From positions 1 through 54,425 of the forward strand of contig JAGVOT010000060.1 in NCBI GenBank assembly GCA_020052615.1: 54,425 nucleotides of DNA. The letters are read 5' to 3'. Shown here piece after piece: positions 5,222 to 16,812 of this stretch (position 1 is the stretch's first letter; every line of letters begins with the position of its first letter). The stretch is from Nitrospirota bacterium. GTDB lineage: Bacteria > Nitrospirota > UBA9217. The translations under genes and the position numbers were made by a program. The notes beneath the pieces were generated by a model, which saw nothing but the letters and a program-made list of their open reading frames with translations, did not search any database and was not told the origin of the DNA.

Positions 5222-5683
5222 CTACCGCGCGATCAGCACCGGGACCTCCGCCTGATTGGCGATCTCCCTGCTCACGCTGCCCATCATGAGCGTATGGAGC
5301 CTCCTGCCCCTCGATCCGACGATGATCATTTCCGCGCCTTCTTCCTTTGCCGCTGCGAGGACCTCATCGGCGGGATGCCCCTGCTTCACCACGGTCTTGA
5401 TGCCGGTGACGCCTTTTCGGACCAGTTCCTGCTGGTAATGCTCCAGAACGGCCCGGGCCTTCTTGTCGAGGGCGTCCTGGTATGCGGTTCCCTGCAGCTG
5501 TTCCTTCAGCGTGGACAGCTCGGCCATGCCCAGCATCTCGTCCATCAGGGATTTGCCCTCGATCTTCTCGACGTACAGCAGCACGACCGTTTCGGGCCGC
5601 GTGCAGGAAAAGAGTCCGGCGAAGGTATCGATGGTCGTCTGTGAGCCCTTGCTGTCATCGACGGCGATCAGAACTTTTTTCAT
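5222..5683 (-). CDS. Universal stress protein (UspA family)
   Basis: Single-domain USP of 153 residues. The N-terminus MKKVLIAVDDSKGS is the conserved beta1/ATP-site strand. The C-terminal VGSRGRRLHTLMMGSVS is close to the G-2x-G-9x-G(S/T) nucleotide loop but one residue short between the second and third glycines; ATP-binding status is therefore uncertain. It is the last gene of the tight run TusA, 61-residue membrane protein, 70-residue membrane protein, USP (gaps of 14-33 bp), so it is probably co-expressed with sulfur-carrier functions. No intrinsic terminator with a T-run follows it. Confidence 0.9.
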   Translation of the reverse strand: MKKVLIAVDDSKGSQTTIDTFAGLFSCTRPETVVLLYVEKIEGKSLMDEMLGMAELSTLKEQLQGTAYQDALDKKARAVLEHYQQELVRKGVTGIKTVVKQGHPADEVLAAAKEEGAEMIIVGSRGRRLHTLMMGSVSREIANQAEVPVLIAR

Positions 5684-5710: not shown

Positions 5711-5923
5711 CTACTCCGTGTCTTCCTTGTACAGGCTCTTGTAGTAATCCTGCGTCTTCGCATCGATGCCTTCAACGGAATCGCCGGTGCTGCCGTACCC
5801 GCCCGCTTCGGCGGATTCGAAATAGCCGACCTGCACCCCGCTTTTCGATGAAAGCGCATAGCCCGCCGTCGCCCCGACGATGCCGACAACTGCCGCAAGA
5901 AGGATCCAGAACCCTGTTTTCAT
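5711..5923 (-). CDS. Small single-pass membrane protein, paralogue of the 61-residue neighbour
   Basis: Protein of 70 residues with one N-terminal transmembrane helix (about 5-25, FWILLAAVVGIVGATAGYAL) and a short hydrophilic tail ending IDAKTQDYYKSLYKEDTE. The tail motif D-x-KTQ-x-YYK-x-L-x-KE is shared with the protein encoded at 5957-6142, and both start MK(T/S)xFWI, so the two genes are tandem paralogues. Nothing in the sequence identifies a known family. The position between TusA and USP suggests a membrane role linked to the sulfur transporter, perhaps as an accessory subunit; that is inference. Confidence 0.75.
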   Translation of the reverse strand: MKTGFWILLAAVVGIVGATAGYALSSKSGVQVGYFESAEAGGYGSTGDSVEGIDAKTQDYYKSLYKEDTE

Positions 5924-5956: not shown

Positions 5957-6142
5957 CTACTCTTCCTTCAGCAGGTCCTTGTAATATTCCTGCGTCTTCG
6001 TATCGAGCTGCGCACCGGCCTTGACCTTGTTAGGCCCGCCGCCGATGATGCCGGCCTCGACGAACGGCGGCAGACTGTAGCCGATGAGGAATCCCGTGAA
6101 TCCCATCACGATGACCACCACGATCCAGAATGTGCTCTTCAT
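5957..6142 (-). CDS. Small single-pass membrane protein
   Basis: Protein of 61 residues: transmembrane helix at about 5-24 (FWIVVVIVMGFTGFLIGYSL), a proline/glycine linker (PPFVEAG, GGGPNK), then LDTKTQEYYKDLLKEE. The C-terminal motif repeats that of the neighbouring 70-residue protein. The gene starts 14 bp after the TusA gene and is preceded by a good ribosome-binding site (GGAGGCG). Function unknown; membrane topology with the charged tail on one face and co-transcription with TusA are the only clues. Confidence 0.75.
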   Translation of the reverse strand: MKSTFWIVVVIVMGFTGFLIGYSLPPFVEAGIIGGGPNKVKAGAQLDTKTQEYYKDLLKEE

Positions 6143-6157
6143 GGGACGTACGCCTCC

Positions 6158-6433
6158 TTACCGGGCCAGGGCGGCGACATCGGCCGTTTTCTTGATCTTC
6201 CACACGTACTTTCCGTTCGCCATGTTCTTTTCCACGATCTCATTTCCCTGGGCCTCGCACATCGCGGCGATCGACTCCGACGAGGAGGGGTTGTCAAAGA
6301 CCAGCTCGACAATGTCCCCGGTCTTCATCTTTTCGAGCGCCTTCTTCGTGTAGATCTGCGGGTGGGGGCATACGTATCCCGTTACGTCCAGCATAAAGAG
6401 CCCTTCCGTTTTTTTCTCGAATTTCATTGCCAT
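6158..6433 (-). CDS. TusA-family sulfurtransferase/sulfur carrier
   Basis: Protein of 91 residues with the TusA signature LDVTGYVCPHPQ: Cys22 is the persulfide-carrying residue, in the CPxP context of the family. TusA proteins relay sulfane sulfur between sulfurtransferases and acceptors in the cytoplasm. It follows the YeeE/YedE transporter gene (174 bp apart) as in known TsuA-TusA pairs, in which imported thiosulfate or other sulfur compounds are passed to TusA. The ATG is preceded by AAGGAGG at 9 bp. Unlike the TusA-like protein at 10909-11142, this copy keeps its cysteine. Confidence 0.92.
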   Translation of the reverse strand: MAMKFEKKTEGLFMLDVTGYVCPHPQIYTKKALEKMKTGDIVELVFDNPSSSESIAAMCEAQGNEIVEKNMANGKYVWKIKKTADVAALAR

Positions 6434-6607: not shown

Positions 6608-8050
6608 TTACAGATCGAACGCCGCCATTTCCTTTGCCATCTGCCGCTCTGTCCACCAGTTGAAGAACTTGACGCCGATGTAGGCGCCGCCGATCATGCC
6701 GATGCCGAACAGCCAGCCCGACGCGTCTCCCAGGGCGACACGGGCGAAGAAGGCCCCGACGTTGCACCCGAGGCCCAGACGGGACCCGATCCCCATGAGC
6801 GCGCCCCCGACGATCGCCCAGACCGCGAGCTCTTTCGTGGGTTTTTTGAACTTGAACTCGTTGCTGAGCAGCGCCATCACTGCCGCTCCGCCGATCAGGG
6901 CGAGGGACATCCAGTCCGCCGGGTTGATGGCGGGATTGGGAATGCCGTTGTTCAGGCCGAAATAGATGTTGTCCATGTTGTCCCAGCCGAGCTTGTTGAA
7001 CACCCATCCTACCCACTGCGCTTCCTGGGTCGTCACGTACCAGTACCCGGGATCGAAGACCGTGCCCGAGACCGACAGGCCGAAATCGTGCCCCAACCTC
7101 GAGAGGAGCGTGCCGGCGTTCCTGACGCCGAATTTGATCCGCAGACCTTCGATCACGAGCATCTGGAGCCCGCAGGCAATGCCGAGGAACAATCCGGCGA
7201 GGGCCGTCCGTTTCGACGATGCGATCATGCCCCACCAGCCGAGAAGCTCTTCCGCAAAGGTCGCGCTTTTCCCTGCCTTGGCAAGCTTGTTCAAATGGTT
7301 CTTTCTGACCCAGAACAGATACACGACCACCAGCAGCACCGCCGCGGGGAGCACGACGCCGACCAGGAAGTCGCCGAGGAACGCCCCCGCGAACGAAGCG
7401 TCCTTGAGCCCGAGCATTTCGGAGAACTTCACGATCGGCTGGTTCCATATGTAGCCGGCGAGATACTGGTCCACCCACCCGTCACCGGCGTTGATGGCCG
7501 CGGGCAGCTTCTTTGCCAGGGCCGACTCGTGCCAAGACTGGGGCACGAGCCTGTTGAACCATCCGCCGATGTCCACGAACGTCGCCTGGGTGATGCTGAT
7601 CGACAGCACCACGAGCAGGGACACGCCGTTGCCCTCGCCGGTCTTGTACAGGGAGCCCGAAGCGCAGCCGCCGGCGAAGACCATCCCGACGCCGAAGACG
7701 AGCCCCGCGATGGTCGCGGCGATGCTGGTCGGAGCGGCATGGAACGTGCTCATGCCCGTTGCGGTCACGAAGGCGGAGACGAAACTGAACAGGATCGTGG
7801 CGATCATGATGCCGACCACCATGCGGGGCACTCCCACCGCGAAGAGGTCCCTGAACGCCGAGGCGAAACAGAACCGGCCGTACTGCAGGCACATGCCGTA
7901 GATAAAACCGAACCACAAGTAGGCCGAGATGTAGATGTAGTACTCATGGACGGCAAAGCTCAGAATGCTGACCAGGATAAGGAACCCGACGATGCCCAGT
8001 GCCCAGCGCTGGTTCTTTGCTTCCCTCATTGTCGCCTCGTTCATTTCCAC
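6608..8050 (-). CDS. YeeE/YedE-family (TsuA-like) sulfur-compound transporter
   Basis: Polytopic inner-membrane protein of 480 residues related to the thiosulfate transporter TsuA. Diagnostic segments are QYGRFCFASAFRD near residue 60, GGCASGSLYKTGEG in the centre and GLGCNVGAFFARVALGD near the C-terminus. These conserved Cys-containing loops form the substrate relay in the structurally known family member. At least nine hydrophobic helices are visible. The start is a GTG at 8050 with AGGAGG seven bases before it; ATG 8044 is an alternative. A sigma-54 promoter (8124-8139) and an activator palindrome (8183-8206) lie upstream. TusA and the small membrane proteins follow. Confidence 0.92.
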   Translation of the reverse strand: MEMNEATMREAKNQRWALGIVGFLILVSILSFAVHEYYIYISAYLWFGFIYGMCLQYGRFCFASAFRDLFAVGVPRMVVGIMIATILFSFVSAFVTATGMSTFHAAPTSIAATIAGLVFGVGMVFAGGCASGSLYKTGEGNGVSLLVVLSISITQATFVDIGGWFNRLVPQSWHESALAKKLPAAINAGDGWVDQYLAGYIWNQPIVKFSEMLGLKDASFAGAFLGDFLVGVVLPAAVLLVVVYLFWVRKNHLNKLAKAGKSATFAEELLGWWGMIASSKRTALAGLFLGIACGLQMLVIEGLRIKFGVRNAGTLLSRLGHDFGLSVSGTVFDPGYWYVTTQEAQWVGWVFNKLGWDNMDNIYFGLNNGIPNPAINPADWMSLALIGGAAVMALLSNEFKFKKPTKELAVWAIVGGALMGIGSRLGLGCNVGAFFARVALGDASGWLFGIGMIGGAYIGVKFFNWWTERQMAKEMAAFDL

Positions 8051-8217: not shown

Positions 8218-9924
8218 CTATTGTGCTGTTTCGGACATGCAGGTCCTCCGGAAGAGGGTGACAAATATTTTATACTTGAACACCCCCGTCGATGACTCGA
8301 ACCGCCGCACCGGATTTGGATCGACCCGGTCACGATCGATGCCGGGCGGAAGGATACCAAGAGGTTCGCCGGAAAGGACCGCGACCGGCGGGCAATCGTC
8401 GGGCACGCCTTCATTGTAGAATGCCGGCAGCCTGACCTCCCAGGTGAACCGGAGCGACGACTGCGCGATGGACCCCTGCTCCGGCAGGGCCGCGGGCGGC
8501 GTTCGATAGCGTACTCTTTTTTTCGTGAAGAGGTCGAGGAGCGGGACCGCCATTTCCGTATTGCCCGCTGACCGCGGCTGCGGCAGGGCGTAGACCTCCA
8601 CGTCGCCGCCGTCCAGGGTGTCAAGATAGCTGCCGGCATCGCGGAGATTGACGAGGCTCATCCTCTCCAGGAACGGCCCATAGGCGCCCAGGGCGATCAC
8701 CAGCGACGTGGTCACGCCGCACCAGACGATGAATTGCCGCACCCCGCGGTCCCTTGCTTCCTGGATCCCGTAGGAAGCCATAAGGGCGAAGAGCGGGGCC
8801 AGGGGGAGAAGATACCGTATCCGTTCATGGTGGAGGAAGACCGCGAAGACCGCGGACCACGCGGGAACCAGAAAGCGCGCATCTCTCCTCCTGACCGCGG
8901 CCGCGATGCCGACGACGGCGGCAGCGGTCAGGAACGGATGGGTTTGAAAGAGAACGGTCGACAAAAAGCCCTCCTGCCATCGCTTGAGACCTTCCGACTG
9001 ATAGGTGAAAAGCAGACGCACCTGCTCCCTGATGACGTCATACTGTGAAAAAAGGACGGCGAGGGACAGCACCCCTGCCCCCGCAAGGACCGCTGCCGCG
9101 CGCGCGATGACCACGCGCCGGTCGTTCCTTGACGGAACGATGATGAGGATGATCAGAAGGGGAAACAGCAGGATCGCTGCGGAATATTTGGAGAAGAGGC
9201 TTAAGAACAGCGCAAGGCAGGCGCCGGATATCCGGGGCAGCCCCCCCCGTTCGATGGCGCCCTGATAGGTGTAGATGGCGAGCGTAATGAAGAACATGGC
9301 CGGGACATCGGCCAGCATGAGGGGTACCTGCGTAAGAAGGTACGGCATTCCCAGAAGCAGGAGGCCCGCGGCCGTCCCGGTCTCGCGGTTCCAGAGCGTC
9401 CTGCCGATATGATAGGTCAAGAGGACGGTGAGGGAAAAAAGGAGGGTCGTAAATGCCTGGATGAACAGGCGCGATTCGCCGAGATACCGGAACAGGAGGC
9501 CGTACAGGAAGGGCACGACGGGAAGGTCCGTCCATGCCCCGATCGCCCCGCCCCATTCCCGGAAAAAGGAGGATATCCCGTAAAGCTCCAGGTGCTTTGC
9601 CTGAAGGAAGTACCGCGAGGCGTCGATGATCACCTCCGGCCCCCCCCAGAGCGGAAGGACCGCGAGGAACGCGAGGAGCGGCAGAAGCACAGCGGGAGCG
9701 CGGTCAAGGAGGGTGCTGCGGGAGAGAATAAATGAGGCGATGATGCCGAGCGCGATGAACGAATAGACCCGCCCGGCGGCCGCGCCGGGGAGGATCCAGT
9801 TCCAGTTCGTGAGCGCGTTATCGTCGAGAGAGCGTCCGATCACGAGCAGGGGCACGGCGAGGAGCGCCGCGAACGCGGTGAGCAGCAAGGCATCTGTTCT
9901 CTCCGGTCTTGTCACCGGTCGCAT
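8218..9924 (-). CDS. GT39-like membrane glycosyltransferase (ArnT/PMT superfamily)
   Basis: Integral membrane protein of 568 residues with about 11-13 hydrophobic helices in the first 400 residues and a soluble C-terminal domain (about 400-560). The first extracytoplasmic loop contains acidic residues (IIDASRYFLQAKHLELYG...GGAIGAWTDLPVVPFLYG), the arrangement of polyprenyl-phosphate-sugar-using GT-C enzymes, and the helix with LMLADVPAMFF is typical of the PMT_2 family. It would transfer a sugar from a lipid carrier on the periplasmic side. Its place inside the sulfur island, 60 bp after the DsrE-like gene, is unexpected; co-transcription is likely but a functional link is not evident. Confidence 0.85.
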   Translation of the reverse strand: MRPVTRPERTDALLLTAFAALLAVPLLVIGRSLDDNALTNWNWILPGAAAGRVYSFIALGIIASFILSRSTLLDRAPAVLLPLLAFLAVLPLWGGPEVIIDASRYFLQAKHLELYGISSFFREWGGAIGAWTDLPVVPFLYGLLFRYLGESRLFIQAFTTLLFSLTVLLTYHIGRTLWNRETGTAAGLLLLGMPYLLTQVPLMLADVPAMFFITLAIYTYQGAIERGGLPRISGACLALFLSLFSKYSAAILLFPLLIILIIVPSRNDRRVVIARAAAVLAGAGVLSLAVLFSQYDVIREQVRLLFTYQSEGLKRWQEGFLSTVLFQTHPFLTAAAVVGIAAAVRRRDARFLVPAWSAVFAVFLHHERIRYLLPLAPLFALMASYGIQEARDRGVRQFIVWCGVTTSLVIALGAYGPFLERMSLVNLRDAGSYLDTLDGGDVEVYALPQPRSAGNTEMAVPLLDLFTKKRVRYRTPPAALPEQGSIAQSSLRFTWEVRLPAFYNEGVPDDCPPVAVLSGEPLGILPPGIDRDRVDPNPVRRFESSTGVFKYKIFVTLFRRTCMSETAQ

Positions 9925-9984: not shown

Positions 9985-10287
9985 TCACAGGACAATGACC
10001 TTGTCCGCCTCGTGCAGCATCGTCGCGTTGTCATACTGGCTGCCGCGCACCACTGCTCCCGGTATGGCGTCAAGGGGAACGCCGAGCCCCTGTGCGCTGT
10101 GCTCGCAGAAGCTCATGACGATCGTTTGTCGCTCCGACAGCTCCCGCACCTCCGGCCGGGTCAACAGGAGCGTTCCCGCGTCCATGACGAAAATGCCGAC
10201 CTCATACCCCCGGGCTGTCGCCGCGGCGGTGATCCCGGCCATGGCATCAGGGTGGTGGTCCGTCGTAACGAGTATTCCCAGTTTCAT
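9985..10287 (-). CDS. DsrE-family protein
   Basis: Protein of 100 residues with the DsrE/F-like fold pattern: MKLGILVTTDHHPDA start, a central VGIFVMDAGTLLL strand, and Cys61 in MSFCEHSAQGLGVP, the position of the sulfur-carrying cysteine in TusD/DsrE proteins. Ends ATMLHEADKVIVL as many DsrE proteins do. Probably a cytoplasmic persulfide carrier acting with the TusA proteins of the island. Third small protein after the 90- and 55-residue ones, in one apparent operon from the sigma-54 promoter at 11212-11227. Confidence 0.85.
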   Translation of the reverse strand: MKLGILVTTDHHPDAMAGITAAATARGYEVGIFVMDAGTLLLTRPEVRELSERQTIVMSFCEHSAQGLGVPLDAIPGAVVRGSQYDNATMLHEADKVIVL

Positions 10288-10327: not shown

Positions 10328-10495
10328 CTACCAGGAAATGACGCTGTCGCTCGAGAAGATCAGCTCGACGATCTTGTCGTAGTCCTTGTCGGTGCGAAGA
10401 TCCACCACCGTGACCGCATGGTCCTGCTTCTGGGCATCCAGGACCCCGCTGATGGTCGCGTCAGGGTCCTTCCTCATGAGACAGAGAATGTTCAT
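10328..10495 (-). CDS. Mini DsrH/TusB-like protein (55 residues)
   Basis: Short gene of 55 codons: start ATG at 10495 with AAGGAG eight bases upstream, stop TAG at 10328. It begins MNILCLMRKDPDATISG, has a predicted alternating strand/helix pattern, and ends YDKIVELIFSSDSVISW. The ending resembles TusB/DsrH proteins, which finish with an aromatic-rich V(I/Q)SW; the usual family length is about 95, so this would be a shortened form. The single Cys is Cys5. It lies 24 bp after the 90-residue gene and 40 bp before the DsrE-like gene, which supports a DsrEFH-like trio. The assignment rests on this weak similarity and on context. Confidence 0.6.
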   Translation of the reverse strand: MNILCLMRKDPDATISGVLDAQKQDHAVTVVDLRTDKDYDKIVELIFSSDSVISW

Positions 10496-10519: not shown

Positions 10520-10792
10520 TCAATAGGCCAGGATATGGTCATAGCCGGGAAGCCGCCTCACGAGCTCTTCGGTCGAGCAGAATTCCAGGTCCGCGTTCTC
10601 CGGAACATTCGTCCAGATGCGCATATCGAGGTCCCGCAGGGTCTCGATGTTCAGGGTGTTCCCTTCGGTCTCCTCGACCTTCCGGCCCAGCACATACACG
10701 TCGATCACGTCGTCCCGGAGCGTGGCCCCCACGGCCATCCGGAGCGCCTCCTCCTGCCGTTCCCGAACCAGCACCGCGATCTTTTTAGCCAT
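10520..10792 (-). CDS. DsrE/F-like small protein
   Basis: Protein of 90 residues: MAKKIAVLVRERQEEALRMA start, a DVYVLGR strand, and Cys72 in ADLEFCSTEELVRR, ending YDHILAY. The layout (N-terminal VLV strand, helix, DVYVL strand, C-terminal hydrophobic strand) matches the DsrE/DsrF superfamily, but no signature is strong. Its position between the TusA-like and the DsrH-like genes supports a role in sulfur relay. Preceded by a 116-bp gap that contains a strong hairpin (10853-10874). Confidence 0.65.
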   Translation of the reverse strand: MAKKIAVLVRERQEEALRMAVGATLRDDVIDVYVLGRKVEETEGNTLNIETLRDLDMRIWTNVPENADLEFCSTEELVRRLPGYDHILAY

Positions 10793-10908: not shown

Positions 10909-11142
10909 TCAAGAGCATTTTTGGATCGTGAAATAGATCGTTCGGCCCTGCACGGTCGTTTCAAGCAGGGCGTAGCCATGCCGCGCGCAAAGCGCGGGGA
11001 CGCTTTCCCTGGCGCCGGCGTCGTTCGTGATAACCGAGAGGACCTGTCCCGGGCCGAGCTGGTTCATGGTCATCTCGATCACGATCGCCGGCCGGGGCTG
11101 CACCAAGCCTTTGATATCAAGGGTCTTGTCCGCCTGTGCCAT
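10909..11142 (-). CDS. TusA-like protein lacking the catalytic cysteine
   Basis: Protein of 77 residues with TusA layout: LDIKGLVQPRPAI, then PGQVLSVITNDAG, VPALCARHGYAL and a final YFTIQKCS. In TusA the motif reads GLxCPxP; here Gln15 takes the place of the persulfide cysteine. Cys52 (where TusA has its second conserved cysteine) and a near-terminal Cys76 remain. It may act as a non-catalytic scaffold or use another cysteine. The frame is open to 11256 (TTG) but the sigma-54 promoter at 11212-11227 lies inside that extension, so ATG 11142, or GTG 11163, is the likely start. First gene of the DsrE-like operon. Confidence 0.75.
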   Translation of the reverse strand: MAQADKTLDIKGLVQPRPAIVIEMTMNQLGPGQVLSVITNDAGARESVPALCARHGYALLETTVQGRTIYFTIQKCS

Positions 11143-11211: not shown

Positions 11212-11227
11212 AGCAAGGGCGGTGCCA
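11212..11227 (-). promoter_or_regulatory. Sigma-54 (-24/-12) promoter of the TusA-like/DsrE-like operon
   Basis: The minus strand reads TGGCAC-CGCCC-TTGCT, a perfect match to the TGGCAC-N5-TTGCW consensus with the invariant GG and GC. Transcription would begin near 11200, some 60 bases before ATG 11142. The activator palindrome lies 49 bp upstream, and GGTTAG occurs just before the -24 box as in the other unit. Confidence 0.82.
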
Positions 11228-11377: not shown

Positions 11378-13027
11378 ATGAAGCGCCCGTTCCTCCTCGT
11401 TTTGGCCGCGGCATCCTTGTTCTGCTCCCCGGCAGCGGCCGCTTCCCCGGGGAATCCGCCCTCCGGACCGGCGGCGTCGAATGCCCCTCCCCCGCTTGTC
11501 TTCGTCATATTGCCCGTCGAAAATCCGAGCGTCGTTTATGAGAAGTTCCTGCCGCTCAAGGAATATCTTGAAAAGGCGATCTCCCGGACGATCGTCCTGC
11601 GGATTGCCCGGGATTACCAGGAGGCGATCCACGCGATCGGCACCGGCAGTGCGCATCTTGCCTATCTCGATCCTTCGGCCTACTGCGAAGCGCGCTTTCT
11701 GCACCGCGTCGTCCCGCTGGTCAAAACGATACGGAACGGGTCTCCGACCTATCGCAGCGTACTCGTTGCGCGGAGCGATTCGGGGATCCACAAGATCATT
11801 GAGGCCAAGAACAAGCGCATCGCCTTCGGCAATAACAGCTCGTCCTCGTCCTATCTCATCCCCGCCGTCATGTTCAAGGAAGTGGGGATCGGCCTCTCGT
11901 CGTTCGCGACCGTCGATTTTCTCGAACAGGAAGACCGGATCGCGCTTTCGGTCCTGGCAAAACGCCACGATATCGGCGGCATGAGCGAACGCGTCGCGAA
12001 AAAATACCTCGGCGACGGCCTCTCGATCATCAATGTATCCGAACCCATCCCCCAGTACGCGCTCAGCGCCTCCGCGGGGCTGCCGGCCGCCCTTCGGAAG
12101 AGCATCCGCAGGGCATTGTTGTCGATCGGAAAGGGCCGCGATCCGGCCCTGATCGCGGCCATGAAGGACATCGACGGCTTCGCGCCGGTGGAAGACCGGG
12201 AGTTCGATGTCGTGCGGGTGATGATCAAGAACCTCACGGGGAAGAACTACCTCTCCTATCCGAAGAACGTGATCAAGGTCGCCATTCTCCCGCTCTACTC
12301 GGCGATCACGCTCTTTGAACGCTTCGATCCGCTCATGCGGTATCTCTCGGAACGGACCGGCCGCGAGTTCAAGCTCGTGATCCCGAAGGACTTCGAGGAC
12401 TTCTTCGCCATCATCGAGCGCGGAGACGCCGATTTCTCCTACTCGAACCCCTATATCTACATCCAGCTTGCCAACCGGGGCCTCCTGACGGCCTTTGCCA
12501 ACACGGTCCTGGAGGAAACGGGCGACATCTTTCGCGGGATCATCATCACCCATCGGGACAGCCCGATCCAGACCGTCGAGGACCTCAAGGGGAGGGATGT
12601 GATGGTCGTTTCCTACCGGTCGGCCGGAGGCTTCCTGGCCCAGAGGCTCTTTCTGTCGGAAAGCGGCATCGACGTCTTCAGGGACCTGAAGCTTCGGGAA
12701 GGGAAACGGCAGGAAACGGTCATCCTGAACGTCTACCGCGGGACGGCGGACGCGGGATTCGTGCGGGAATCAGCGCTCGATGTGCTCCGCGAAGAGATCG
12801 ACCTGAGCAGGGTCCGCGTGCTCGCCCGGACGCCCTACATCCCGAACTGGCCCTTCGCCGCCACGAAACGGGCGGACGGGGATCTCACGGCGCAGGTGCA
12901 GCAGGCCCTCACGGAGCTCGCGGACCGCAGGGTGCTGACCGCCGCCCGCGTGCGCGGCTTCAAGATAGCGGACAACAGGGACTTTGACGATCTGCGGGAA
13001 TGGATCGACCGGAAAACGCATGAATAA
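11378..13027 (+). CDS. Tandem PhnD-domain periplasmic binding protein
   Basis: Protein of 549 residues with a signal peptide (LLVLAAASLFCSPAAAA, cleavage near residue 22) and two consecutive phosphonate/phosphite-type (PhnD) solute-binding domains, about 38-285 and 300-540. Each begins with a beta strand (VFVILPVENPSVVYEKFLPL; VAILPLYSAITLFERFDPLM) and has the Y(L/S)xPxxY pocket strand (AYLDPSAYCEA; FSYSNPYIYIQ). There is no ABC transporter nearby; instead a histidine kinase and a sigma-54 activator follow, as for the arsenite sensor AioX-AioS-AioR, so a sensory rather than transport role is likely. The ligand is unknown but could be a sulfur oxyanion. Its stop overlaps the kinase start by 8 bases. 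Confidence 0.88.
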   Translation: MKRPFLLVLAAASLFCSPAAAASPGNPPSGPAASNAPPPLVFVILPVENPSVVYEKFLPLKEYLEKAISRTIVLRIARDYQEAIHAIGTGSAHLAYLDPSAYCEARFLHRVVPLVKTIRNGSPTYRSVLVARSDSGIHKIIEAKNKRIAFGNNSSSSSYLIPAVMFKEVGIGLSSFATVDFLEQEDRIALSVLAKRHDIGGMSERVAKKYLGDGLSIINVSEPIPQYALSASAGLPAALRKSIRRALLSIGKGRDPALIAAMKDIDGFAPVEDREFDVVRVMIKNLTGKNYLSYPKNVIKVAILPLYSAITLFERFDPLMRYLSERTGREFKLVIPKDFEDFFAIIERGDADFSYSNPYIYIQLANRGLLTAFANTVLEETGDIFRGIIITHRDSPIQTVEDLKGRDVMVVSYRSAGGFLAQRLFLSESGIDVFRDLKLREGKRQETVILNVYRGTADAGFVRESALDVLREEIDLSRVRVLARTPYIPNWPFAATKRADGDLTAQVQQALTELADRRVLTAARVRGFKIADNRDFDDLREWIDRKTHE

Positions 13028-14636
13028 ACTTGGCCTGGGGCTGAAATTCTCGCTTGCCGTCACCATGCTGATCGTGCTGACCATGACCGTGGTCGCCACC
13101 CTGGTCATCAGCAACCAGCGGGAGGCGCTGCGGGAGAACACCGCGCAAAGCAACCTGTCGATGACCCGGAACCTCGCGCACGACGCCGAGGGGCCGATGC
13201 TCGTATTCGACCCGCTGCGGCTCGACGAGCTGGTCACCACCGTCCTGGACGCCACGGCCTGCTCCTATGCGATGGTCACGGACCGGGACGGGCGCATCGT
13301 CGCTCACACGAAGCGCCGCATGATCGGCAGCCTGGCGCGGCAGGCGGAGGGTGACGGCCCCGCGGGCCGCACCCTTCCCGTCGGGGAGATCATTCGGGAG
13401 CGCCTCATCGACGGCGTGCAGGTCAAGGAGTTCACGGTCCCGATCACCATCGGCTCGGAGACTCTGGGCGCGGCGACGATTGCTTACTCGGCACGGGGGA
13501 CCGATACGGCGATCGAACGGGACCTCGCGAAGCTGCGGCGGTCCATCGTGTTCATCACCGGCGTCGTCCTCCTTTTCGGCGTTGTCGGCGCCTTTGCGGT
13601 TTCCTCCGTCATGACGCGGCCGATCACGCGGCTCAAGCAGAAGATGCAGGATGTCCAGGCAGGCAACCTGAACGCCGAGGTGGAGAACCCCCGCATCGTC
13701 ACCTGCCGGGAGCGGCTGAACTGCCGCAAGACGGACTGTCCCGCGTACGGCAAGCCCCGGTGCTGGGCCGTTGCCGGCACCTTCTGCCACGATACGGTGC
13801 AGGGCCAGTTCGCCCAGAAGATCGGCGACTGCCGAAAGTGCGTCGTATACCGGGAATCGTGCGGCGATGAGATCGGGGAGCTCGTGGAGGTCTTCAACCA
13901 GATGGTGAAGGACCTCCGGTACAACCTTTCGGAGCTGGAGAAGGTGAACACCGAGAAGTCCCGGATGGAGCGGCTTTCCGCCCTCGGCGAGATGGCATCC
14001 ACCGTGGCGCACGAGACGAAGAACCCTCTCAACTCCATCCGCCTCGCGACATCCTACCTCAAGAAGAACTTCCAGGGCGAGATCCTGACCGAGTTCCTGG
14101 AGATCATCGAACAGGAGGTGGCCCGGCTCAACGAACTGACCTCCGGCTTCCTCGGGTATTCGAAGCCCGCGCCGCTCAAGCTCAAGCCCTGCGACATAAA
14201 CGCCGTCATCCGGTCGACCGTGGATCTCGTCCGTCAGGATGCCACGGACCGGAACATCGAGCTGGTCGTGCTGACCGATGATCACGCGCCCCCGGTGGGA
14301 TGCGACATCTCCCAGATCAAGCAGGCGCTCCTGAACCTGCTGATAAACGCCATGGACGCGTCGGCCGCGGGCAGCGCCATCACGGTCACGACCGAATCGG
14401 CGGACCGCCGCATCCGGATCTCGGTGCAGGACACGGGGGCGGGCATACCGCAGGACGAGATTGAAAATATCTTCAAACCGTTCTATACTACAAAGACCCG
14501 CGGCGCGGGTCTCGGGCTCGCGATCGTCGAGCGGATCGTGAAGGAGCACGGCGGAGAGATCCGCGTAGTGAGCAGCCGGGGAAAGGGGACGACGTTTACC
14601 ATCGACCTGTCGGCACATGCCTATGCAAAACCATAA
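13020..14636 (+). CDS. Membrane sensor histidine kinase with eight-cysteine module
   Basis: Kinase of 538 residues. TM1 is at about 7-31, a periplasmic sensor region at 32-170, TM2 at about 175-199, then HAMP. Directly after HAMP comes a cysteine-rich insert with Cys229, 235, 240, 248, 256, 271, 274 and 281 (DCPAYG, RCWAVAGTFC, GDCRKCVVYRESC), probably a metal or redox site. The phospho-acceptor is His331 in STVAHETKNPLNS, followed by HATPase_c with N (NLLINAMDAS), G1 (DTGAGIP) and G2 (GAGLGLAIV) boxes. The frame opens at 12984 but ATG 13020, overlapping the PhnD gene end, gives the normal N-terminus. Overlaps the response-regulator gene by 20 bases. Confidence 0.92.
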   Translation: MNKLGLGLKFSLAVTMLIVLTMTVVATLVISNQREALRENTAQSNLSMTRNLAHDAEGPMLVFDPLRLDELVTTVLDATACSYAMVTDRDGRIVAHTKRRMIGSLARQAEGDGPAGRTLPVGEIIRERLIDGVQVKEFTVPITIGSETLGAATIAYSARGTDTAIERDLAKLRRSIVFITGVVLLFGVVGAFAVSSVMTRPITRLKQKMQDVQAGNLNAEVENPRIVTCRERLNCRKTDCPAYGKPRCWAVAGTFCHDTVQGQFAQKIGDCRKCVVYRESCGDEIGELVEVFNQMVKDLRYNLSELEKVNTEKSRMERLSALGEMASTVAHETKNPLNSIRLATSYLKKNFQGEILTEFLEIIEQEVARLNELTSGFLGYSKPAPLKLKPCDINAVIRSTVDLVRQDATDRNIELVVLTDDHAPPVGCDISQIKQALLNLLINAMDASAAGSAITVTTESADRRIRISVQDTGAGIPQDEIENIFKPFYTTKTRGAGLGLAIVERIVKEHGGEIRVVSSRGKGTTFTIDLSAHAYAKP

Positions 14637-15975
14637 GATACTGATCGTCGATGATGAGAAGAACATTCTGCGCGTCGTCTCCACGACGCTCAAGGGCGAG
14701 CATTACGACGTCACCACGGCCCAGTCGGCCGAAGAGGCCATCGAGAAGTTCGGCCGCGGCGGCTTCGACCTGGTGATCACGGACCTCAAGCTTCCGGGCC
14801 AGAGCGGCCTGGACCTCCTCTCCTACGTGAAGGCGCGGGAGCCGGACATGCCGGTCATCATGATCACCGCCTTCGGCACGATCGAGAACGCCGTCGGCGC
14901 GATGAAGCGGGGCGCCTTCAATTACCTGACCAAGCCGGTGAATCCCGACGAGCTGCTGACCGTGGTGCGCGAGGCCGTGGAAAAATTCGAGCTCAAGCGG
15001 GAGAACCGTTCACTGAAATCCGAGCTCAGGCAAAAATACGCCTTCGGAAGCATCATCGGGAAGAGCGTGGTCATGCAGGAGGTCTTCGATACGATCCGCA
15101 TGGTGTCGAAGACCCAATCCAGCATCCTGGTCCTCGGCGAAAGCGGGACCGGCAAGGAGCTTGTCGCCCGGGCCATCCATTACGAGTCCGACCGCGCGGA
15201 GCGCCCCTTTGTCACCATTGACTGCGCCACGATCCCCTCGGAGATCATGGAAAGCGAGCTCTTCGGCCACGAAAAAGGGTCCTTCACGGGGGCGCATGAG
15301 CGCAAGGTCGGCCTGCTGGAGCAGGCGGACAGCGGAACGGTGTTCCTCGACGAGATCGGCGAGATCGACCTGCAGCTCCAGAAGAAGCTCCTGCGCTTCC
15401 TCCAGGAGCGGGAGATCCTTCGCGTCGGCGGTTCGGCGCGGATCAAGCTCAACATACGCATCGTTGCGGCGACGAACAAGGACCTGGAGCACGAGGTCCG
15501 GGAAAGGCGCTTCCGCGAGGACCTGTTCTACCGTTTGAACGTCGTCGCCATCAAGATGCCGCCGCTCCGGGAGCGCAAGGACGACATCCCGCTCCTGGTC
15601 CAGCATTTCCTCGAAAAACTGAATCAGATCGAGGGACGGATGATCGGCGGGTTCGAGGACACGGCAATGGAGGCAATGCTCGCCTACGACTGGCCGGGAA
15701 ACGTGCGGGAGCTGGAGAACGCGATCGAGCGGGCCTACATCCTCTGCCCTTCCATCACCATCGGCCTCAAGCACCTGCCCACCAAGATCGTGGCCCTGGC
15801 CCGGAGCGAGCGGGACCCCATCGACGAGATGAACCTCCTGGAGACCGAAAAGCGGCTGATCGTCCGCGCCCTGACCAATGTCTCGTGGAACCAGAGCAAG
15901 GCCGCCGAGGTCCTGGGGATCACCCGGAAACAGCTCAGGACGAAGATGAAGAACCTCGATCTGCTGCCGGAATAA
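14617..15975 (+). CDS. NtrC-family sigma-54-dependent response regulator
   Basis: Activator of 452 residues: receiver domain (1-120) with phospho-acceptor Asp56 (VITDLKLP), AAA+ domain (about 143-380) with Walker A GESGTGKE (174-181), Walker B region VFLDEIGE, arginine-finger region [11 protein letters not shown], and a Fis-type HTH at about 425-447 ([18 protein letters not shown]). The sigma-54 contact loop reads GSFTGA (221-226) rather than GAFTGA, an Ala-to-Ser change. The upstream kinase is its cognate partner by overlap. The two sigma-54 promoters with shared palindromes in the neighbouring sulfur island are its likely targets. ATG 14623 is an alternative start. Confidence 0.93.
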
Positions 15976-16122: not shown

Positions 16123-16812
16123 ATGAAAAAGACCGTGATCGCACTGTTCATCATTGTGTTCGTCGTCGGCTGCGCCGGAACATGGATGACCCGGCCCATC
16201 GAGTCGTTCAAACCCGCGGAGGCGGTCCCGCCCGCGTCGGTCTGCAAGCCCTGCCACGAGGCCCAGTTCGACTCGTGGAAGAAGACGCGCCACAGCGACG
16301 GGCAGCGCATGGCAAAGATCCCCGTGGCGGAGCTGCACGAGTGCGGGGCATGCCACGCGAACCTTGCGGCCCACGCCGCCGATCCGGGCAGCAAGCCGTC
16401 CGGGATCGCGGCAATGACCAAGACCGAGAAGAACACGCTCTGCGGGAAGTGCCATTACAGCCAGGCGCTCTTCGGCGGAAAAGCGATCAATCCTCACGGC
16501 AGGCATTCGCTTTTCGCGAACGTCGCGCTCGAGGGCCAGCCGAAGCAGATCGCCTGCCTCGACTGCCGTTCCGGCCATAAAGGCGGATCGGACATGCTGG
16601 TCAGGATCAAGGCCCACATCTGCTACGAATGCCACACGTCGGCCATGATCACCATGGGCATCCTGTTCCAGGTCCCCAACTGGATCTCCAACGGATACAT
16701 GTGCCAGGCCTGCCACACGGTCCACGGCGGTTCGGCCAGCGAGCGCTGGGGCCGCATGGGTGTCGGGTTCTGCGTGATCTGCCACTTCGTCGGCGTGGCG
16801 CTCGTCGGCTGA
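16123..16812 (+). CDS. Multihaem c-type cytochrome lipoprotein
   Basis: Protein of 229 residues with a lipoprotein signal (IVFVVGC, Cys17 lipidated) and six CxxCH haem motifs starting at Cys41, 74, 107, 167, 194 and 217. A seventh site, CLDCRSGH at 145-152, has Arg where the haem-ligating His would be and a His three residues on, so it is either a lost or a CxxCxxxH-type haem site. The first motif with its following FDSWKKTRH resembles DmsE/MtrA-like decahaem cytochromes. It probably carries electrons at an outer or inner membrane surface. No partner oxidoreductase is adjacent; terminator at 16820-16848. Confidence 0.9.
   Translation: MKKTVIALFIIVFVVGCAGTWMTRPIESFKPAEAVPPASVCKPCHEAQFDSWKKTRHSDGQRMAKIPVAELHECGACHANLAAHAADPGSKPSGIAAMTKTEKNTLCGKCHYSQALFGGKAINPHGRHSLFANVALEGQPKQIACLDCRSGHKGGSDMLVRIKAHICYECHTSAMITMGILFQVPNWISNGYMCQACHTVHGGSASERWGRMGVGFCVICHFVGVALVG

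Follow-up and report, generated by a model that had tools for sequence, protein, structure and literature searches.

The stretch of DNA analysed here (the window) is 54,425 nucleotides of a Nitrospirota contig. On its minus strand lies a sulfur-relay gene cluster headed by a TusA paralogue that lacks the persulfide cysteine and is called cysteine-less below; a putative sensor system is encoded divergently on the plus strand. The features are:

5222..5683, minus strand: universal stress protein (USP; PF00582)
5711..5923, minus strand: small protein with a hydrophobic N-terminus, a paralogue of the protein at 5957..6142
5957..6142, minus strand: small protein with a hydrophobic N-terminus, conserved in the cluster
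6158..6433, minus strand: TusA2, cysteine intact (GYVCPHP)
6608..8050, minus strand: YeeE/YedE-family sulfur transporter (YedE; PF04143)
8218..9924, minus strand: membrane glycosyltransferase-like protein (PMT_2/GT39), conserved in the cluster
9985..10287, minus strand: DsrE-like protein (PF02635), 100 aa, with an active-site-type Cys61 (SFCEHSA)
10328..10495, minus strand: probable DsrH-like subunit, 55 aa, assigned by synteny and position only
10520..10792, minus strand: DsrE/F-fold protein, DsrF-like (DsrEFH type II), 90 aa; its model matches YchN (Z 11.4), DsrE/F 3mc3 (Z 11.0) and DsrEFH 2hy5_B (Z 9.3)
10909..11142, minus strand: cysteine-less TusA paralogue, 77 aa; ATG at 11142, coding 11142-10912, stop 10911-10909
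11212..11227, minus strand: sigma-54 (-24/-12) promoter-like site TGGCACCGCCCTTGCT, upstream of the cysteine-less TusA
11378..13027, plus strand: PhnD-type substrate-binding protein with two SBP domains (PF12974), divergent from the cysteine-less TusA
12984..14636, plus strand: sensor histidine kinase (HK; single Cache, HAMP, HisKA, HATPase)
14617..15975, plus strand: NtrC-type sigma-54-activating response regulator (RR)

A first-pass annotation had placed a TusA-like gene at 10909-11142 with no strand indicated; it is encoded by the minus strand. Its product matches the Pfam TusA family PF01206 over residues 6-75 (E 3e-15, score above the gathering threshold). The defining residue of TusA is a persulfide cysteine, carried in the motif GLxCPxP. 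Here codon 15 is CAG (11100-11098) and the motif reads G-L-V-Q-P-R-P. Alignment with E. coli TusA (1dcj, 3lvj) is gapless and sets Gln15 at the position of Cys19 and Cys52 (codon 10987-10989) at that of Cys56. The AlphaFold model (pLDDT 87) has the strand and helix order of TusA, and its best structural match is E. coli TusA itself (3lvj_C, Z 15.8, rmsd 1.2 angstrom, 76 residues), with unrelated IF3-like folds well below at Z 8 to 9. By descent the protein belongs to the TusA family, as judged from the HMM match and the beta-alpha-beta-alpha-beta-beta fold. The second cysteine at the E. coli Cys56 position, common but not universal in TusA, is present as Cys52; the CPxP persulfide cysteine that marks a functional TusA carrier is not. 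E. coli TusA/YhhP (PF01206) is matched in fold, length, gapless alignment and second cysteine, but differs in having the CPxP cysteine where the window protein has Gln and its orthologues Ser, Gly, Asp or Ala, several of them with the motif prolines lost as well. These results bear out the initial description of a glutamine replacing the persulfide cysteine in an otherwise intact TusA fold. Two further parts of that description held: the gene leads the DsrE-like operon, with the sigma-54-type site some 70 bp ahead of it and a divergent gene beyond, and the second TusA at 6158-6433 retains its cysteine.

The surrounding genes include, in synteny, YeeE/YedE, a Cys-bearing TusA, DsrE, DsrF and DsrH (the last by position only), the parts that make up a YTD cluster, and the active-site cysteine of DsrE, Cys61, is kept in all orthologues read (in motifs like SFCDHSA). 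The tusA adjacent to dsrEFH lacks the persulfide cysteine, however; the copy that has it adjoins yedE. TusA2 comes after YedE in complete clusters and is probably the real sulfur carrier and YedE partner. Published YTD (yeeE-tusA-dsrEFH type II) clusters (PMC13293266, PMC12998232) share with the window YedE, a Cys-bearing TusA (here TusA2), DsrE with its conserved cysteine, a DsrF-fold protein and a small DsrH-like protein, whereas the window cluster adds a leading cysteine-less TusA, GT39, two small proteins, USP and PhnD-HK-RR. YeeD/TsuB, the TusA-family protein that works with the thiosulfate importer YeeE, is alike in its TusA fold (8k1r, Z 15.2) and its co-encoded YeeE/YedE transporter, but YeeD needs its CPxP cysteine (PMC11073785), which the window protein does not have. 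Against the NCBIfam TsuB/YeeD model the window protein reached 17.6 bits for a cut-off of 147.5, and there is no Cys15.

Several other features of the cluster were recorded. The 90-aa DsrF-like protein gave no Pfam or NCBIfam match. The PMT_2/GT39-like gene between DsrE and YedE, kept across Nitrospirota families, has no obvious link to sulfur transfer. The two small paralogues (5711-5923 and 5957-6142) share 35% identity and recur in related clusters, where they lie between TusA2 and USP; Pfam gave nothing for one of them and NCBIfam nothing for the other. The window genome also has dsrA, and a second, ordinary TusA-YedE-DsrE-DsrF-DsrH (YTD) cluster lies elsewhere in the same genome (G000 contig C41, L087 971-3308).

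Relatives were sought with a profile search of 395 Nitrospirota genomes and of contigs from 84,980 species. The latter search required the motif DKTL[DE][IV][KRQ]G[LV], and absence from other phyla holds only for proteins that bear it. A single-sequence query against the contigs of the 84,980 species gave no match, although the profile search did find members. Fourteen members of the clade were read, and the residues at the cysteine position are Gln (window), Ser (L091, L095, L097, L104), Gly (L092, L094, L096, L100, L134), Asp (L093, L130) and Ala (L098, L102). The persulfide cysteine is thus present in 0/14 members, versus 119/119 other TusA sequences inspected (79 from the tree set plus another 40 with high scores), and the prolines flanking the motif are also gone in several orthologues. 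The first-pass annotation had held that orthologues restoring the cysteine would point to a local mutation or sequencing error; every member of the clade lacks it, and only a more distant sister clade has it. A sequencing or assembly error at the cysteine codon is conceivable only for one genome taken alone. Together with local mutation it was rejected, given 14 separate assemblies, five different residues and changes in the neighbouring prolines, and we assign it practically no probability.

The cysteine-less proteins form one clade, with support of 97/85 when the motif columns are included and 86/81 after four motif columns are removed. Its nearest relatives bear the cysteine. One Cys-bearing sister, L145, occupies the same operon place, with an HK divergent from TusA-DsrF-DsrH-DsrE, which suggests that this arrangement is the ancestral state. 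Most simply, the cysteine was lost once, in an ancestor common to several Nitrospirota families; a single loss is favoured rather than proven, because support is lower in the motif-free tree. A search of the open-access literature returned no description of a TusA clade without the conserved cysteine.

The first-pass annotation had suggested that the protein might use Cys52 or Cys76 instead, and had raised the conservation of the glutamine and of the C-terminal cysteine as points to check. Neither is conserved. Gln occurs only in the window among the 14 members, and as a private residue it was rejected as a new functional one; Cys76 is missing from 13/13 other members and was rejected likewise. 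Cys52 fared differently: it is found in 14/14 members, is the sole invariant cysteine of the clade, and is among the nine invariant columns of a 12-sequence alignment. The same residue is present in 18/18 Cys-bearing sisters and, across the wider Cys-bearing TusA sets, in about half of sequences (44/81 and 21/40). Since all the Cys-bearing sisters have it, Cys52 is an inherited residue that was held while the catalytic cysteine was lost, and from the alignments its retention alone would not mark a new active site. The invariance of Cys52 nonetheless raises the reading that the protein still carries sulfur, with Cys52 replacing the CPxP cysteine. In E. coli YeeD both cysteines are needed in vivo, the second of them lying at another site (PMC11073785). 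We consider a relocated carriage site unlikely, as Cys52 is equally invariant in sisters that keep the original thiol, Cys56 is not the persulfide site in E. coli (PMC11302665), and the CPxP helix cap, thought to activate the thiol, has not been transferred to Cys52.

Only two genome pairs were close enough for an estimate of dN/dS, and in both of these unsaturated pairs the value for the cysteine-less TusA was about 0.27 (p 0.008 and 0.006). In the same operon, dN/dS was 0.34 for DsrE and 0.08 for the DsrF-like gene. The cysteine-less TusA is therefore under purifying selection, though moderate. It evolves faster than its sisters, as seen in long tree tips, and these long branches would also fit weak constraint. 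They are what could be said for a protein left useless by the loss of its cysteine and now drifting, along with the absence of the gene beside the sensor in two genomes described below. Purifying selection strongly disfavours such decay, as do a frame open in 14/14 loci, the invariant Cys52, the conserved promoter site and retention across several families; we hold it to be very improbable.

The genes that follow the cysteine-less TusA vary among loci. DsrFHE genes lie directly downstream in 9/14 loci, and in a tenth dsrF alone is seen at the contig end. The glycosyltransferase (GT39) is instead the next gene in G001 and G286; G001 has its DsrFHE elsewhere, in a GT39-YedE-TusA2 cluster without a cysteine-less TusA, and in G286, a 91% complete genome, no relative of the window DsrE was detected at E up to 1e-3. 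In G012 a thioredoxin-like protein follows, and then SoxX, SoxY, SoxZ, SoxA and SoxB, all five above NCBI equivalog cut-offs; G009 shows the same operon start as far as it is seen before the contig end. No single partner gene is common to all of these operons. The first-pass annotation had also suggested a docking subunit, which in its narrowest form would belong to the DsrEFH type II complex as a structural component. The adjacency to DsrFHE in most loci speaks for this, but pure docking to DsrE is weakened by G286 and by the operons with Sox or GT39 genes, where the gene is kept with no adjacent DsrFHE. We regard a purely structural role as quite improbable, more so than carriage on Cys52. 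At locus L097 (1024-5368), from a Nitrospirota genome in which dsrA is present too, SoxXYZAB genes form an operon that follows this sigma-54-type promoter and a cysteine-less TusA.

The upstream side is more constant. A predicted sigma-54-type site, TGGYAY-N5-TTGCW, lies 63-166 bp before the cysteine-less TusA in 14/14 loci, against 0.18 expected from shuffles. A search of the 395 genomes for the strict site combined with a start codon and the DKT-codon pattern gave five matches, all at cysteine-less TusA genes, and none in the reversed control. Most loci visibly face a divergent PhnD-HK-RR operon; the contig of L130 is too short to show that side. Since the downstream genes vary, the cysteine-less TusA tracks sensor and promoter, not DsrEFH. 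In G212 and G380, however, GT39 or YedE stands opposite this sensor system and no cysteine-less TusA lies between them, so the gene is dispensable, though widely kept.

This linkage raises a second reading in which the protein works in signalling, not in the sulfur relay, as a cytoplasmic feedback or input component of PhnD-HK-RR. It is tied more tightly to the PhnD-HK-RR promoter region than to any downstream gene (DsrFHE-GT39-YedE, GT39 alone, or thioredoxin-like protein and SoxXYZAB), and the Cys-bearing sisters L145, L146 and L147 also face a divergent HK-RR. The linkage may, on the other hand, reflect only a first-gene place behind a conserved promoter, and the sensor system of G212 and G380 stands without an adjacent cysteine-less TusA. 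That no TusA is known to us to bind either a histidine kinase or a regulator of the NtrC type also counts against this reading. That a paralogue can take on a control function has a precedent in the SoxT1A/SoxT1B modules of Hyphomicrobium denitrificans, where sulfur oxidation genes are likewise accompanied by YeeE-like proteins, one copy serving import and the other, the YeeE-family SoxT1B, acting as a signal unit (PMC11582611). The signalling paralogue there is a membrane protein working with an ArsR-type repressor, in contrast to an altered TusA-like protein and a PhnD-HK-sigma-54 RR in the window. On balance a role in signalling seems about as unlikely as relocated carriage.

With the persulfide cysteine absent, the protein cannot work in the way that TusA is known to (PMC11302665, PMC4175335). 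The reading that we tentatively prefer, with somewhat less than even confidence, is that it is a pseudo-carrier, which partners or modulates the proteins of the sulfur relay without catalysis and leaves carriage to TusA2. A TusA paralogue has lost its persulfide cysteine, and selection has kept it as the promoter-proximal gene of sigma-54-type operons beside the PhnD-HK-activator system. Under this proposal it would carry no sulfur at the TusA site but would retain the surface of TusA along with the cysteine for client contact, equivalent to E. coli Cys56. Through these it may bind relay partners, namely DsrE of DsrEFH type II where present, or else YeeE/YedE, a SoxT-like importer or TusA2. 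The bound protein would modulate or organise the relay, with the Cys-bearing TusA2 moving sulfur from YedE onwards. Binding to IscS survives in the C19S variant of E. coli TusA, and a part in client interactions is described for Cys56 (PMC11302665). In Metallosphaera cuprina, TusA Cys18 is reported to be crucial for the interaction with DsrE3A, so a TusA without this cysteine might not bind DsrE at all (PMC4175335).

Slightly more tentative is the broader proposal of a class of pseudo-carriers: a TusA paralogue without sulfur binding that would be a dedicated regulator or adaptor, encoded first in sigma-54-controlled sulfur-oxidation or import operons, and would connect the cytoplasmic relay with a sensor of sulfur compounds in the periplasm. 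The clade would be a natural separation-of-function mutant in which fold, second cysteine and operon place were kept, and which could help to establish what TusA does besides carriage. It also calls for caution where the YTD cluster is taken as a marker of sulfur oxidation or disproportionation, as a PF01206 match beside dsrEFH may not always be a sulfur donor.

The divergent system itself (11378-15975), which lies upstream of Sox and DsrEFH operons, is a candidate sulfur-compound sensor of Nitrospirota. A PhnD-type double binding protein, a Cache HK and a sigma-54 activator adjoin sulfur operons in about 16 genomes, and the window system shows weak similarity to TtrS. Just beyond it, positions 16123-16812 are predicted to encode a protein rich in CxxC and CxxCH-like motifs, which may be a multihaem cytochrome c.
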